Assembly: GCF_018603885.1 (NCBI RefSeq)
Contig: NZ_JAHGAW010000008.1
Location: forward strand, 62,001 to 126,000
Origin: Sphingobium nicotianae
GTDB lineage: Bacteria > Pseudomonadota > Alphaproteobacteria > Sphingomonadales > Sphingomonadaceae
DNA: 64,000 nt
Reading direction: 5' to 3'
Numbering within the stretch: the stretch's first letter is position 1; every line of letters begins with the position of its first letter. A program made the translations under genes and the position numbers. Under the pieces are notes generated by a model, which saw nothing but the letters and a program-made list of their open reading frames with translations, was not told the origin of the DNA and did not search any database. Shown one piece after another: positions 45,119 through 55,234 of the stretch.

Positions 45119-45308
45119 CATGTTGGTTATCCGGGACATGTCTGTCGAGTCAGTGCCAGTCAGCCCGTCGCCGATGCTCGTGGCATCGCGCGCCGGATTG
45201 TTGCACATAGCCTGTCGTGCGGGGAATCATGCTCACGATCGGGTCGATGCGGGCGGGTGGCCGCCATCCGTTCTTATGGACCTTTCCGTTCCATCGTGAT
45301 GGCTCTTG

Positions 45309-45854
45309 ATGGCGGACTGGACCGCGCTTGCCGACGCCGAGTTGGTCGCGGCCGCCGTTTCCGGCGACCGTGCGGCGTTTCGGGCTCTGCTCGAGCGGCA
45401 TTATGATCGCGTCCACCGCCTCGCCTGGCAATTGACCGGATCGCGCGCCGACGCGGACGACGTCACCCAGGACGTCTGTTGCACGTTGGTCGAGAAGATC
45501 GGGAGCTTCCGGGGTGAGGCCAAGTTCACGACCTGGCTGTGTGGGATCGTGTACAATGCCTGCCGAGACCTGCGCCGCCGCAAGCGCTCCTTCGGCGCGT
45601 TCACGGAGCGGCTGGCCGTCCTCGCCGGGCTCTCGCGCGGTCCCGATGGCCGTGACCTGTACGACGCGATGTGGCTCAAGAGCGCCATCGCGCGCCTGCC
45701 GCCGGCCTATCGCGAGGCGCTGGCGCTGGTGGTGGGGCAGGAACTCAGCCATGCCGAGGCGGCGGCAATCCTGGGCGTCGCCGAATCCACCATTTCCTGG
45801 CGGCTGCACGAAGTGCGCCGCACGCTCGGAGCCCAAGCCGGCGCGACCGACTGA
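45309..45854 (+). CDS. ECF-type RNA polymerase sigma factor
   Basis: A 181-residue sigma factor. Region 2 (about 20-90: [31 protein letters not shown]) and region 4 (about 118-172: [44 protein letters not shown]) are both complete. ECF sigmas activate small regulons after an envelope signal. ATG 45309 is adopted; a TTG at 45306 is possible, and no strong ribosome site is seen. It heads a run with the VWA lipoprotein (101 bases later) and the membrane-anchored TPR protein, which I take as its regulators. Confidence 0.9.
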
Positions 45855-45955
45855 GGTCTCGAAAAAAAATCGCAGGGCCACCCAAGGATCTCCCCGGGAC
45901 GCGCGTCGCAGGAACATGCGGACGATGTGCGCCGCTGTTTTCTGGGAGAATGCCC

Positions 45956-47746
45956 ATGTCGCGTTTGATGCCCCGTTTGAATAGTCTGATCGCGACGGCG
46001 AGCGTCGTCGCACTCCTCACAGCCTGCGCCCAGTCCGGCACCGAGCAGGCGGCCAATACGCTGTCGAACGAGAAAAAAGTCGCCGGGAGCGGCGACGCGA
46101 GCGACAGCGAGATCGTCGTGACCGGCGCGCGGATGGAGCGAGGCGATTATGCGGCGGCCGCGCCTGTGACTGTGGTCGGTCGTGGTCGCGTCGGCGAGGT
46201 GCCGCCGCCGCCCCCACCGCCCCCACCGCCACTCTATGCGCCGCAGGCCGCAATGACGACGCGGTTCGCGCCGAGCCCTGAGCCCCGGCCGCGCCTGCCC
46301 TATCATGATGTCGGCCGCGACCGCTTCACCAGCGTGGCGCAGAACCCGTTCAAGGTCGTCAAGGAAGAGCCTGTCTCGACCTTCTCGATCGATGTCGACA
46401 CCGCCTCCTATTCCTTCACCCGTGCATCCCTCGCGCAGAATGTGCTGCCGCAGCCGGCGGCGGTGCGGGCCGAGGAGATGATCAACTATTTCCCCTATGA
46501 CTATGCCGCGCCGCGCAGCGCCGAACAGCCTTTCACCACCAATGTCGCGGTGTTCCCCAGCCCGTGGACGGCAGGGCGCAAGCTCGTGCGGATCGGCATC
46601 AGGGGCTATGCGGTGCAGCACGCGACGCGGCCGCGCGCCAATCTCGTCTTTCTGATCGACACGTCCGGATCGATGAACGAGCCGAACAAGCTGCCGCTGG
46701 TCAAGCAATCGCTCGCCATGCTGCTCGATCAGCTCGGCGGCGACGACAGCGTCGCGATCGTCACCTATGCCGGCTATGCCGGGACCGCGCTGGCGCCGAC
46801 GCCGGCCAGCCAGAAGGCGAAGATCCGGGCGGTGATCGACCGGCTCGGCGCGGGCGGCGGCACGGCCGGCGCCGAGGGCATCCGCCAGGCCTATGCGCTG
46901 GCCGAGCAGAATCTCGATCCAAAGGGCGTCAATCGCGTGATCCTGGCGACCGATGGCGATTTCAACATCGGCATCACCAATCAGGAGGAGCTCAAGGGCT
47001 ATGTCGAGCGCGAGCGCGGCAAGGGCGTGTTCCTCTCGGTGCTCGGCTTCGGCATGGGCAATTACAATGACGCGCTGATGCAGACGCTGGCCCAGAACGG
47101 CAATGGCGCGGCCGCCTATATCGACACGCTCACCGAGGCGCGAAAGACGCTGGTGGACGAGGCGAGCTCGACCCTCTTCCCGATCGCCAAGGACGTGAAG
47201 ATCCAGGTCGAGTTCAATCCGGCGACCGTCGCGGAATATCGGCTGATCGGCTACGAGACCCGCATGCTCGCCCGCGAGGATTTCGACAATGACAAGGTCG
47301 ATGCCGGCGATGTCGGATCGGGCCAGACGGTGACGGCGCTGTACGAGGTCGTGCCGGTCGGCGGGCCGCGCGCGGTCGGCGATCTGCGCTATGCCAAGCC
47401 GGTGGTGATGGCGGGCGCCACGGTCGGCAAAGAGCTGGGCTTCGTCAAGATCCGCTACAAGCTGCCCAAGTCCGACAAGAGCGCGCTCATCTCGACGCCG
47501 ATCGATCGGACGGTGGACTATGCCCGGTTCGAGGATGCACCGCGCGACGCCCGTTTCGCCGCCAGCGTCGCCGCCTTTGCCGAGCTGCTGCGCGGCGGCA
47601 AATATAGCGGCTCGGTCGGTTATGACGATGTGCTGAGGATGGCCAATGCCGCGCGCGGCGACGACAGCTTCGGCTATCGCGCGGAGTTCGTCCAGCTGGT
47701 CCGCGCCGCCAAGTCCGCGAGCGGGCTGGCGCAGCTGGAGCGCTAG
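45956..47746 (+). CDS. VWA domain-containing lipoprotein (YfbK-type) with TonB-box-like segment
   Basis: A 596-residue protein. A lipobox LLTAC puts Cys24 as the lipid anchor. Residues 52-59 read EIVVTGAR, a segment otherwise typical of sphingomonad TonB receptors. A proline run (about 82-91) follows, then the VWA-linked N-terminal domain (FSIDVDTASYSFTRA), a von Willebrand A domain with the metal site DTSGSM near residue 235, and a C-terminal domain (about 480-596). GGGAGA lies 6 bases before ATG 45956. It probably faces the periplasm. Partners: sigma factor before, TPR protein after. Confidence 0.88.
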   Translation: MSRLMPRLNSLIATASVVALLTACAQSGTEQAANTLSNEKKVAGSGDASDSEIVVTGARMERGDYAAAAPVTVVGRGRVGEVPPPPPPPPPPLYAPQAAMTTRFAPSPEPRPRLPYHDVGRDRFTSVAQNPFKVVKEEPVSTFSIDVDTASYSFTRASLAQNVLPQPAAVRAEEMINYFPYDYAAPRSAEQPFTTNVAVFPSPWTAGRKLVRIGIRGYAVQHATRPRANLVFLIDTSGSMNEPNKLPLVKQSLAMLLDQLGGDDSVAIVTYAGYAGTALAPTPASQKAKIRAVIDRLGAGGGTAGAEGIRQAYALAEQNLDPKGVNRVILATDGDFNIGITNQEELKGYVERERGKGVFLSVLGFGMGNYNDALMQTLAQNGNGAAAYIDTLTEARKTLVDEASSTLFPIAKDVKIQVEFNPATVAEYRLIGYETRMLAREDFDNDKVDAGDVGSGQTVTALYEVVPVGGPRAVGDLRYAKPVVMAGATVGKELGFVKIRYKLPKSDKSALISTPIDRTVDYARFEDAPRDARFAASVAAFAELLRGGKYSGSVGYDDVLRMANAARGDDSFGYRAEFVQLVRAAKSASGLAQLER

Positions 47747-47911
47747 GGACGGTGGGCCGCCGCTGTCGGCGAAGCAGCGGCGGCCGGTCGCGAGGTTGGC
47801 TTAGACCCGCGCGCAATATTGGCTATAAGGCTGGCCGATGCCGCTGTTCCCGCCTTGTCGCGCGACGATCCGTGCCTCTCGCCTCGACGGGGCGGGGGCC
47901 GTTGGACGCTG

Positions 47912-49078
47912 ATGCCGATGGGGCCTGACGACGATCTCGCGAAATTGCTGCCGGAGGCGCCGCCGCGACCGGACCGGCGCGAGGCGGCCATCGCCGAGGC
48001 GATGCGCCGATTCGACGGCGAGGCGCCGACGTCCATCGCGCGGCGACCGCGCTTTGCCTGGCCGAAGCTCGGTCGCACACAGCTCGGCGCGGCCATGTCG
48101 GTGGCGCTGCTGGCGGCGATCGGCGTACCGCTGGCGCTGCGCACGATGCAGACGGAGGAGCTGGGCCTGCGTTCGCCACCGAAGCCCCATCATGCCAGCG
48201 AGCGAGCCTCCCCGTCGCCTGTCGCGACCCGCGCCGCGCCGGCGGGTCGCGATCAGCCTCCTCCGGCACAGGCCGCGCCGGCGCCGGCGACAGCGGTACC
48301 CGCGAAGGAGGCGCCACGCGCGCTTCGCGGGATGACGGCAAGCGAGGAGCCATCATCGCAGGATGCCCAGCCGGAGACGGCTTTCGCGCCGGCCGCACCT
48401 CCTCCTCCTCCTCCTCCTCCGGCGCCACCACCTCCGCCCCCGCCCGCCGCTGTTGCTTCTTCCGCCAAGGCGAGCGCGCCGCGTGCCCGGGCGCCTGCGG
48501 CGGAACAGGACGTGGTCGTCACCGGCACCCGGCTGGCCGGGCGCGTGAGCGACACGCCGGTGGCCATCACGGCCGCCGGGGAGAGCGAGGCCGGTGCCAC
48601 CGAGATCGTCGTGACCAGCGGGCGCATCTCGCGCGCCGAGAGCAAGGCGGCACAGCGTGGCGACTGGAATGCCTGCACCGTGGACGATCCGGCGCGCAGT
48701 CTCGATCGGTGTCGGCGAGTGACGAAGCCGGGCGCCAAGGACAATGTGGGTCAGGCGGCGGCGCATATGGCCGATGGCCTCACCCATGCCTGGACACGCG
48801 ACATGGACGGCGCGGTCGCGGCCTTCGACGCAGCGATCGCGATCGATCCCAAATCCGCTTCAGCCTATCTCAATCGCGGGATGGCTTATCATCATCTCGG
48901 CGAGGACGAACGGGCGGTGCGGGATTTCGACCAGGCCGTGCGGTATGCGCCCCGCGACCCGCGCGGTTTCTATCACCGCAGCATTGCCCTGCGTGCTCTC
49001 GGCGACGAGCGGCGCGCCGGCGCGGATCAGGCGCGCGCCGTCAGCCTGGATGGGCGATACGAGGAATTGGTCGACTAG
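47912..49078 (+). CDS. Membrane-anchored TPR protein with TonB-receptor-like segments (putative anti-sigma)
   Basis: A 388-residue protein. Residues 1-55 are a soluble, probably cytoplasmic part (DDDLAKLLPEAP..., REAAIAEAMRRFDG). One helix follows at about 57-77, then a long proline-rich spacer with a (CCT)7-encoded proline run. Residues 200-207 read DVVVTGTR and 214-221 DTPVAITA; a second copy EIVVTSGR is at 231-238. The C-terminal third holds tetratricopeptide repeats (AVAAFDAAIAIDPKSASAYLNRGMAY). The layout is like an anti-sigma factor. The start could also be 47918; no strong ribosome site is seen. Confidence 0.72.
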   Translation: MPMGPDDDLAKLLPEAPPRPDRREAAIAEAMRRFDGEAPTSIARRPRFAWPKLGRTQLGAAMSVALLAAIGVPLALRTMQTEELGLRSPPKPHHASERASPSPVATRAAPAGRDQPPPAQAAPAPATAVPAKEAPRALRGMTASEEPSSQDAQPETAFAPAAPPPPPPPPAPPPPPPPAAVASSAKASAPRARAPAAEQDVVVTGTRLAGRVSDTPVAITAAGESEAGATEIVVTSGRISRAESKAAQRGDWNACTVDDPARSLDRCRRVTKPGAKDNVGQAAAHMADGLTHAWTRDMDGAVAAFDAAIAIDPKSASAYLNRGMAYHHLGEDERAVRDFDQAVRYAPRDPRGFYHRSIALRALGDERRAGADQARAVSLDGRYEELVD

Positions 49079-52873: not shown

Positions 52874-55234
52874 TTAGAAGTTCCGCTTCACGGTGAGCGC
52901 CCATTCGCGGGGGCGGCCCGGCGCATTCCACGAGAAGCCGATGACCGGGATGAAGCTCAGATCCGCGTTCGACACATAATAGACCTTGTCGGTGAGGTTG
53001 GTGACCTCGAGCGCGAACTCCCAGGCGCGGTCCGTGTCGCGCCAGGTCAGGCGCGCATTGGCCAGCGTGTAGGGCGCGATGCGGGCAGTGGGCCGCGGCG
53101 TGCCGCTCGAGAAGACCTCCGAGGTATAGCTCGCGTCCAGGCGCGGGGTCAGGCTGCCCATCGCGCCCAGGTCGAACTCATATTGCGCGCCGACACTCCA
53201 TTTCCAGTCCGGCGAATAAGCGCGGACGACCTGTGTGCCCGCGCTCGGATTGACGCGGGTATAGCGGAATTTGAGGTAGCTGACCGAGCCGTCGATCAGC
53301 AGGCCATCCACGGGCTCGGCAGTCATCTCGGCCTCGACGCCCTTCACTTCCGCGTCGCCCGCATTGGCGGTGACGCCGCAGGTCGGGAAGGTCGAGATCT
53401 GCGGGCAGGTCAGCAGCGTGAACTGGACGTCCTTCAGCGTGCTGTAGAAGGCCGCCAGGTTCAGGCGCAGCTTGCGGTCGAACAGGGTGTTCTTGAGGCC
53501 CAGCTCATAGTTGACCGTGCTTTCCGGGCCGAACGGCAGGGCCTGATCCGGCGCGAAGGGACGCGGCGTGTTGCCGCCTGAGCGGTAGCCCGTGGCGACG
53601 GAGGCATAGCCCATGATGTCCGGCGTCAGCTTGTAGTCGGCGCTGATCGACCAGTCCCAAGTGCCCTTCTTGTAGCGGCTGGTGATCGTGTCGAGCACTT
53701 CATAGCCTGGCGCGACCGCACCTGTCTGCGTGTAACGGCGCAGGGCGAAGCTCTTCGTCTCATGTGTGTAGCGCAGGCCGCCGACCAGGTTGAACTTGTC
53801 GGTGACGTGCCACGCGACGTTGGCGAAGCCCGCCACGGAGTCGTTCTTGATCCGGTCATTGTTGGTGAAGTCGTAGCTAGGCGACTGATAGATGAAATAC
53901 TGGCGTGGGCGATAGGCTGCCCAGCGGTGCAGATAATAGCCACCCAGCGTATATTCGATCGCGCCATCGGCGAGCTTGCCGCTCAGGCGCGTTTCCTGGC
54001 TGAACTGACGGTTGTCGATGTCCTGGAAGTCGAGACCCAGGCCCAGCGGCGATCCGTCGACGTCGCCGACCCACTGGGCGCGGGACTTGCGATAGGCCGT
54101 GATCGACTTGATCTTGATGCCGGCGATCGGCTCCCAGTCGATGGTGCCGGCGGTGCCCCAGCTCTTATATTGCTGGCGTGGGGTCGCCGTGATCGTGCGG
54201 TTCGGCACGCCCTCGATCACGCCGCCCGGCATGTAGTAAGAGGAATAGTTGGTGTAGGGATCCGGCGCCGAGAAGCGGGCGTCGTAGGGTACGCCGTTCA
54301 GCTTGACGCGGTCGAGAATGTTGTTGGTGTTGTTCCACACCACGCCGCCCATCTCCGAATCGTCCTGGATGACGTCGGCCGAAACGTTGACTTCGAGGTT
54401 CGAGGTTGGGAGGATGCGGACGGCGCCGCGCACGGCCTTATAGTCCACGCCGCCCATCGTGCCGAGCAGGCAGTCATTGCCGGTGACGAAGGTGGGCAGG
54501 CCGCTGCCGGGGTGCGAGCAGGCATAATCGATGCGCTTCACATAGCCGCGCTGGCTCTTGGAGACGCCGCTGATGCGCACGAAGACCGCGTCCGGAACCA
54601 GCGTCAAGTCGCCCGAAGCGCGCAGGTCGATGCGGTTGCGGCTGCCATAGGTCGCCTCGGCAAAGCCGCCCTCGCCATTGGGCTTGCGGGTATAGAGCTT
54701 GACCGCGCCGCCGATCGAGTTGGCGCCGGCGTTGGTGCCCTGCGGGCCGCGCAGGATCTCGACGCGATCCAGGTCGAGCAGGTCGAACACCGCGCCGACA
54801 GTGCTCGTGTAGAACACGTCGTCGATATACATGCCGACGCCCGGCGAGAAGGCGGGATGGGGATCGATCTGGCCGCCGATGCCGCGAATGCTGGTGGCGA
54901 TCGAGGGACCCCACACGCCAGCCTGCGGCTTCAACGTGACGTTCGGTGCCTGCGCCGCGATCTGCGAGATGTTGGTCTGGCTGCGGCGCGCCAGCATGTC
55001 GGCGCTGACGGCCGTGATCGCGACCGGCGTGTCCTGCACGTTGGTGGAGCGGAACTGGGCGGTGACGACGATGTCGCCGAGGCCGGAGCCGTCATCGGCG
55101 TTCTGCGCCGTATCCTGTGCGGGTGCGTCCTGCGCCTGGGCGGACGCGGCCGATGCGCACAGCATGGCGAGCGAGAGGAGCGACGTTCCGATGGCGAAAC
55201 GACGAACAGAAGCATTCGATCTTTGGATTGACAT
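52874..55234 (-). CDS. TonB-dependent receptor
   Basis: A 786-residue outer-membrane receptor. Signal peptide to ASAQAQ, TonB-box-type DIVVTAQFR at 54-62, plug domain (about 65-170: DTPVAITA at 68-75, SIRGIGGQ, VEILRGPQGTNAGANSIGG), then a beta-barrel ending in the classic aromatic terminus (VKRNF). Start at 55234 fits GGGGAG 7 bases upstream. It imports a scarce or large compound using TonB energy. Lying among SMP-30, SnoaL, cupin and MarR genes, it is probably the uptake step for their substrate. It has its own promoter and terminator. Confidence 0.95.
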   Translation of the reverse strand: MSIQRSNASVRRFAIGTSLLSLAMLCASAASAQAQDAPAQDTAQNADDGSGLGDIVVTAQFRSTNVQDTPVAITAVSADMLARRSQTNISQIAAQAPNVTLKPQAGVWGPSIATSIRGIGGQIDPHPAFSPGVGMYIDDVFYTSTVGAVFDLLDLDRVEILRGPQGTNAGANSIGGAVKLYTRKPNGEGGFAEATYGSRNRIDLRASGDLTLVPDAVFVRISGVSKSQRGYVKRIDYACSHPGSGLPTFVTGNDCLLGTMGGVDYKAVRGAVRILPTSNLEVNVSADVIQDDSEMGGVVWNNTNNILDRVKLNGVPYDARFSAPDPYTNYSSYYMPGGVIEGVPNRTITATPRQQYKSWGTAGTIDWEPIAGIKIKSITAYRKSRAQWVGDVDGSPLGLGLDFQDIDNRQFSQETRLSGKLADGAIEYTLGGYYLHRWAAYRPRQYFIYQSPSYDFTNNDRIKNDSVAGFANVAWHVTDKFNLVGGLRYTHETKSFALRRYTQTGAVAPGYEVLDTITSRYKKGTWDWSISADYKLTPDIMGYASVATGYRSGGNTPRPFAPDQALPFGPESTVNYELGLKNTLFDRKLRLNLAAFYSTLKDVQFTLLTCPQISTFPTCGVTANAGDAEVKGVEAEMTAEPVDGLLIDGSVSYLKFRYTRVNPSAGTQVVRAYSPDWKWSVGAQYEFDLGAMGSLTPRLDASYTSEVFSSGTPRPTARIAPYTLANARLTWRDTDRAWEFALEVTNLTDKVYYVSNADLSFIPVIGFSWNAPGRPREWALTVKRNF

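Follow-up and report, generated by a model that had tools for sequence, protein, structure and literature searches.

A stretch of 64,000 nucleotides from the 4.43-Mb genome of Sphingobium nicotianae (the window) carries, on its plus strand, a gene for an extracytoplasmic function (ECF) sigma factor, followed by genes for a YfbK-type VWA lipoprotein and for a TPR protein with a single membrane helix. The two downstream proteins contain segments resembling the TonB box and the plug start of TonB-dependent receptors, and these segments are the subject of this analysis. Unless indicated otherwise, all features described below lie on the plus strand. In the sigma factor (45309..45854; 181 amino acids) Sigma70 regions 2 and 4 were both detected (PF04542, 1.2e-17; PF08281, 1.3e-11). 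The VWA lipoprotein (45956..47746) contains the domains vWF_A, VWA and YfbK_C in the order required of the YfbK type (PF12450, VWA [PF00092], PF12034), and an alignment of 40 homologues, selected from those listed, shows its lipobox cysteine to be invariant. The TPR protein (47918..49078, alternative start 47912), recognized by its matches to TPR families and by a structure model, is a candidate anti-sigma factor.

The TonB-box-like segment of the VWA lipoprotein, EIVVTGAR (46109..46132), begins at residue 52 from the ATG at 45956. The TPR protein contains two such segments: DVVVTGTR (48509..48532; residue 200 from the ATG at 47912, or 198 from that at 47918) and EIVVTSGR (48602..48625; residue 231 or 229, respectively), the latter directly before the TPR domain. 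Between them lies DTPVAITA (48551..48574; residue 214 or 212), a copy of a receptor plug start. A genuine TonB-dependent receptor with Plug and barrel domains, encoded on the minus strand at 52877..55234, served for comparison; it has DIVVTAQFR (55049-55075) and the same DTPVAITA (55010-55033). The receptor gene is situated 3.8 kb beyond the TPR gene, with other reading frames in between. All of these peptides were found in frame at the positions given in the preliminary description of the locus, and the distance of 14 residues from box to DTPVAITA was indeed identical in the TPR protein and the receptor. That description had overlooked a plug-start-like APVTVV (46160-46177) in the VWA segment. 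According to a hand count, this element (APVTVVG, 46160..46180) stands in the +16 register of one class of receptors, the SPV class, although taken alone it is weak. Neither the VWA protein nor the TPR protein matched the Plug (PF07715) or beta-barrel (PF00593) domain at an E-value of 1e-3.

In the structure model of the TPR protein, a short helix (residues 21-35) and a membrane helix (residues 56-84; 48074..48160) are followed by a region without regular structure up to residue 241, and then by the TPR domain, predicted with a local distance difference test score (pLDDT) of ~97. The short helix corresponds to the conserved cytoplasmic sequence RREAAIAEAMRRFD (47969..48013), a proposed sigma-binding module. 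Most of residues 197-239, the box region, has a pLDDT below 50, the first segment included, and the boxes are only a short distance from the folded domain, an arrangement shared with receptors. The model of the VWA protein is of modest quality (mean pLDDT 61); residues 27-83, including the box, are unstructured. In both models, therefore, the boxes are on free tethers. The periplasmic location that had been proposed for both segments is borne out by this anatomy, which places them in a disordered tether. Docking of a segment on its own protein was considered and rejected, since the segments are unstructured in the models (with the mean pLDDT of 61 for the VWA protein). The C-terminal part of the TPR protein (48659..49075) comprises a periplasmic GDWNACT motif and the TPR domain; G, D, W, N, C and T of this motif are invariant in 58 homologues.

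Occurrence, conservation and register of the segments

The genome was scanned at the DNA level for [DE][IVM]VVT[GA], which gave 40 matches compared with 5 for a reversed-pattern control. Thirty-three of the 40 directly precede a Plug domain. The remaining seven are in the VWA gene, the TPR gene, a MlaA homologue, a receptor-like protein, a site internal to a receptor barrel and two cytosolic-looking proteins, judged by eye to be a kinase and a CoA ligase. With a second, less strict pattern that includes arginine at +6 there were 49 matches (control, 14), of which 40 precede a Plug domain. Both patterns combined recovered 55 of the 79 receptors, and the census of boxes is therefore not exhaustive. 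Places not preceding a Plug domain that were found with the two patterns comprised, besides the receptor-like protein and the site within a barrel, the genes for the VWA and TPR proteins and for two MlaA homologues, and cytosolic-looking or antisense frames, the last group at or below the control level. The plug-start pattern [DE]TPVA[IM]T was even rarer, with three matches in 4.43 Mb (control, 0): the TPR protein, the receptor of the window and one more receptor. The receptor-like protein mentioned above (L195, G000:C1:297000-300600) has ∼900 residues and contains DIVVTG, with no Pfam Plug match.

Conservation was examined in the best 120 of 8000 VWA matches and the best 120 of 200 TPR matches. 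The window's own record was left out of each set, as were two VWA rows without an N-terminus, leaving 117 VWA and 119 TPR homologues; these are kin, and the counts that follow are not independent events. The strict core was present in 103 of the 117 VWA linkers (shuffled mean, 0.43) and in 113 of the 119 TPR linkers (shuffled mean, 0.95). The 20 linkers lacking it hold near variants (IVVSG, IAVTA, IVTTG), with the exception of P0199, in which the core is present and the linker was miscut. An alignment of 40 VWA proteins shows conservation of at least 90% at the V and T of the core, within a linker that is otherwise unconserved. Outside this anchor, receptors, VWA proteins and TPR proteins share flanking residues, namely D or E at −1 and R at +6.

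At the level of loci, 80 named genome loci were compared, 44 of them counted as sphingomonad (L065, L073 and L078 by likeness) and 36 as other; in this test the core was allowed to have T or S. Among the sphingomonad loci the VWA tether had the core in 37 of 40 usable cases, and L058, counted as unusable, visibly has it too. Among the other loci it was found in 0 of 32 usable cases within the 100 residues before the fold, and in 1 of 32 (L110) when the whole tether was searched, which is the chance level (1.01 expected). The downstream partner of the sphingomonad loci carried the core in 36 of 38 cases by script and, on inspection, visibly in the other two (L057, L065); six of the 44 loci end too early. 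Absence of the segments from orthologues had been named beforehand as the outcome that would speak against their significance, and the opposite was observed.

Several individual records deserve mention. The L110 sequence, from a Caulobacterales contig, encodes an ECF-linked VWA protein with DEIVVTAGK in a long tether, at residue 326 of the open frame. In L035 the TPR-protein gene is apparently frameshifted ahead of its TPR part, and a receptor-like TonB-dependent gene lies directly downstream. An ECF-VWA-TPR locus of the sphingomonad type is also present on L073, a contig labelled Arthrobacter; mislabelling or contamination of this record is likely.

The likeness to receptors extends beyond the box to the register of the plug start. 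In 78 receptors of the S. nicotianae genome that were read, plug starts of the DTPxAIT type were found in 20, in every case at +13 from the first core residue, and those of the SPV type in 13, at +16 in 10 of them. In the linkers of the homologues, DTPVA-type words stood at +13 in 7 of 7 VWA and 13 of 13 TPR proteins, and SPV-type words at +16 in 4 of 4 VWA and 15 of 16 TPR proteins; the search expressions differed slightly between receptors and linkers. A plug-start profile was then built from 68 of the 78 receptors, with the box excluded, and run on box-masked linkers. Scores of at least 8 bits were obtained for 14 of 117 VWA linkers (shuffles, 0 of 2340) and 38 of 118 TPR linkers (shuffles, 2 of 2360). 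For the linkers of the window, the best-domain score was reached by 31 of 5000 VWA shuffles and by 0 of 5000 TPR shuffles. Reversed-pattern controls, shuffles and phylogenetic spread together rule out chance or a DNA repeat as the origin of the segments. The earlier claim that a box and a plug start occur in two proteins that are not receptors therefore holds in that the segments are real and beyond chance, while the likeness outside the box is modest in the window itself.

Domain relocation and boxes in other alphaproteobacteria

ECF-VWA modules with a related ECF factor upstream and the same VWA family occur in other Proteobacteria. In the non-sphingomonad loci an ECF gene was found upstream of the VWA gene in 33 of 36 cases, and an RxAAIxxAMxxFD-type cytoplasmic helix and then a membrane helix mostly form the start of the VWA protein. 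In the 30 of 36 such loci with enough downstream sequence, BLAST detected no TPR partner; the same BLAST missed three sphingomonad partners that were later found by eye. In these modules helix and anchor are fused to the VWA protein, unlike the split arrangement of sphingomonads, where the VWA protein is a lipoprotein, the helix and membrane segment instead begin the TPR protein, and boxes are present on both halves. The R, A, I, A, R, F and D positions of the TPR-protein helix are at least 90% conserved in the 58 homologues. A profile of this helix scored at least 8 bits against 11 of 35 non-sphingomonad VWA N-termini (three of them lipoproteins), compared with 1 of 1750 shuffles and 0 of 35 sphingomonad VWA N-termini. 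Since the helix and membrane segment have moved onto the TPR protein, this protein is, judging from its sequence, the likely anti-sigma factor of the neighbouring ECF sigma factor, and the VWA lipoprotein is probably its outer-membrane partner. No Pfam anti-sigma domain and no FecR/STN domain was detected in the TPR protein, for which the domain search gave TPR families only. In L105, the downstream partner keeps an anti-sigma-like helix, a membrane helix and an IVVTG segment, and its C-terminal domain is not TPR.

A VWA protein from a genome of the same class and another family (L276 of G213) contains a stretch of 55 residues, 43 (78%) of which are identical in a receptor that the same genome encodes. 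The copy covers the box and plug start of this Plug-bearing receptor, with a DNA identity of 127/169 (75%); the pair consists of L276 and L295. A Pfam search of the copied segment gave no match. This resemblance within one genome shows that such segments do get copied. Boxes were recognized by eye in three more non-sphingomonad VWA lipoproteins (L269, L274, L280), so that in the sample of other alphaproteobacteria 4 of 11 readable VWA proteins without a fused helix have a box; no readable N-terminus was available for L275, L277, L278, L279 and L281. With tblastn, no ECF gene was found in the short loci of the remaining genomes of this sample. The segments thus reach beyond the ECF pair, being present also in certain further VWA lipoproteins and in one clade of MlaA.

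A tree of the VWA domain was computed from 60 rows, labelled by eye: 17 sphingomonad proteins (that of the window plus 16 from the 44 loci), 29 fused proteins, 10 lipoproteins or secreted proteins, and the 4 proteins with a box. The four box rows occupy four separate places and need four changes on the tree, at least three of which are forced by well-supported branches; the branch leading to L276 is long, and L108, which has TVVTAGAR, was counted among the rows without a box. The sphingomonad VWA proteins nest among ECF-linked fused proteins, and two Methylobacteriaceae fused proteins fall within their 19-row set.

Possible engagement of TonB by the sigma factor partners

The presence of the segments, their register and conservation, their position in a tether, the operon and the relocation of the domains can be taken directly from sequence; their function is a matter of interpretation. 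In the receptor DdvT of Sphingobium SYK-6, IIVT at residues 40-43 is a mutationally supported TonB box (PMC6874591). The changes V42A and T43A each lowered growth on, and conversion of, the substrate, T43A lowered uptake, and the double change V42A/T43A was at the level of a deletion (PMC6874591). The core of such receptor boxes, two hydrophobic residues followed by V and T, is common to the VWA and TPR segments, as are the acidic residue before the core, the R after it and the plug-start register of the receptors of the S. nicotianae genome. TonB boxes act by strand addition to TonB (PMC9249621, PMC7593965), and receptor cases cited in the second of these reports have affinities of about 10-60 micromolar.

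On these grounds, binding of TonB by the VWA and TPR segments is the best explanation and, from sequence, reasonably likely. The segments would have been taken over from, or have converged on, TonB-dependent receptors, and would most likely bind the C-terminal domain of a TonB protein in the form of a beta strand. Engagement of TonB, whether free or pulling under proton motive force, would alter the complex of VWA protein and anti-sigma factor, with release or retention of the sigma factor as the outcome. Sigma activity might thereby be set by receptor demand or by proton motive force, and the system would report how busy or energised TonB is. Taken as a whole, the explanation that TonB-box and plug-start modules were selected in both partners of the ECF factor and dock TonB appears to us evenly balanced between right and wrong. 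Control of the sigma factor itself by TonB is a tentative and somewhat doubtful part of it, though gene control in sphingomonads may be wired straight to the TonB motor. A mimic that senses TonB load, as suggested in the preliminary description, is plausible.

Several observations weigh against this interpretation. Likeness to the plug start is limited to the minority of homologues given above (14/117 and 38/118), and some orthologues carry the weaker core variants (IVVSG, IAVTA, IVTTG). The box-masked linkers of the window score low (TPR, 5.4 bits; VWA, 4.4 bits), and their full scores were reached by 35 of 5000 VWA and 11 of 5000 TPR shuffles. The window linkers being weakly plug-like, the strong claim is founded on the family as a whole and on the word DTPVAIT, and not on the VWA protein of the window alone. 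The number of receptors fails to predict a box in the VWA proteins of other alphaproteobacteria: genomes with 55 and 39 Plug domains are without one, and a genome with 4 has one. The TPR protein is anchored in the inner membrane and therefore offers no obvious lever for a pull by TonB, unless it is bound to the outer membrane or to the VWA protein. Finally, a genome scan with the conserved element that precedes the ECF gene did not single out receptor genes.

Three other explanations were considered. The VWA and TPR segments could join strand to strand across the periplasm with no part for TonB, their likeness to receptors reflecting convergence on a good edge strand. Boxes are indeed found on both partners in sphingomonads, in which a separate protein has the helix and anchor that elsewhere are fused to the VWA protein, and the likeness of VWA and TPR segments is higher within a genome than between genomes (mean 32.8 vs 22.4; 0 of 10000 permutations; 28 of 35 pairs), which may also reflect shared ancestry. 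Such pairing is nevertheless improbable: it leaves unexplained the receptor-specific register and plug-start words, the boxes in other alphaproteobacterial VWA lipoproteins and in MlaA, and the 55-residue copy in G213. We regard as similarly unpromising the idea that the segments serve as a decoy or handle for some other periplasmic factor, such as a protease, chaperone or assembly factor, that also acts on receptor N-termini, for example in regulated proteolysis of the anti-sigma protein at times when factors of this kind are unoccupied. The disordered tether between membrane and TPR domain would be a natural cleavage zone for such a factor, but the work on V42 and T43 of DdvT, the only sphingomonad experiment on the motif that was found, points to a TonB-box function. 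We know of no proteolytic signalling role for MlaA or for lone VWA lipoproteins.

A neutral relic, in which a captured stretch of receptor gene was kept as a handy disordered linker and is now functionless, seems very improbable. It would fit the one clear capture, in G213, and the low constraint on the linkers otherwise, but the five-residue core is conserved within a linker that otherwise drifts (at least 90% for V and T in 40 VWA proteins; 37/40 loci), and a box was gained recurrently on the VWA tree. Docking of TonB, as set out above, would also have a broader counterpart: TonB as a general puller of sphingomonad envelope proteins through boxes grafted onto an anti-sigma factor, a VWA lipoprotein and a clade of non-lipoprotein MlaA, so that both transcription and lipid transport at the outer membrane would be coupled directly to the Ton motor and proton motive force. 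This extension is speculative and, in our view, unlikely. A box in MlaA would render TonB-driven lipid transport directly testable.

The arrangement proposed here can be compared with FecA/FecR/FecI and FoxA/FoxR/FoxI, which likewise consist of an ECF sigma factor and a single-pass membrane regulator, a role assigned here to the TPR protein on sequence grounds. In signalling of the FecA/FoxA type, TonB and proton motive force are part of the route from envelope to sigma factor, as is proposed for the present locus. In those systems it is the outer-membrane receptor that bears the TonB box, and a signalling domain of this receptor contacts the regulator (PMC9249621, PMC11637429). Here, unlike in these systems, no receptor is encoded in the operon, and the boxes are on the regulator and the VWA lipoprotein. 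Other non-receptors with a TonB box in a disordered stretch are the colicins and pyocins (PMC7593965); these are secreted toxins imported by TonB, whereas the VWA and TPR proteins are resident envelope proteins beside a sigma factor. A search of the literature, which covered mostly titles and the openings of abstracts, returned no anti-sigma, VWA or MlaA protein described as having a TonB box. Should TonB indeed bind these segments, the sigma factor would be tied to the Ton motor without an intervening receptor, and the system would sense either how far TonB is occupied or the proton motive force. This would represent a second logic of surface signalling, by which bacteria rich in receptors could gauge competition for few TonB proteins; the present genome has 79 matches to the Plug domain and 5 to the TonB C-terminal domain.

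Upstream element and MlaA homologues

The element 5′ of the ECF gene (45181..45205), which is conserved in sphingomonads, was recognized in 42 aligned upstream regions, the window included, and has the consensus, drawn by eye, TGGYRYC-N7-SGRNTGNKGCA. The genome contains one exact copy of it and 15 copies with at most one mismatch (control, 6). Given the single exact copy, the element is perhaps autoregulatory, and from its sequence it is a possible autoregulated promoter of the ECF gene. A sigma regulon spanning the receptors was considered and found no support in the element, which has one exact copy and no clear excess.

A long linker is present in both MlaA homologues of the genome, and inspection by eye revealed no lipobox in either. 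The box-like sequences EIVVTG (L196, G000:C9:84143-85099) and VMVVTA (L193, G000:C20:38693-39583) are situated directly before the MlaA domain. Lipoprotein MlaA rows show no such segment outside the signal peptide; in the closest MlaA group it is frequent, with a strict core in 11 of 24 rows.

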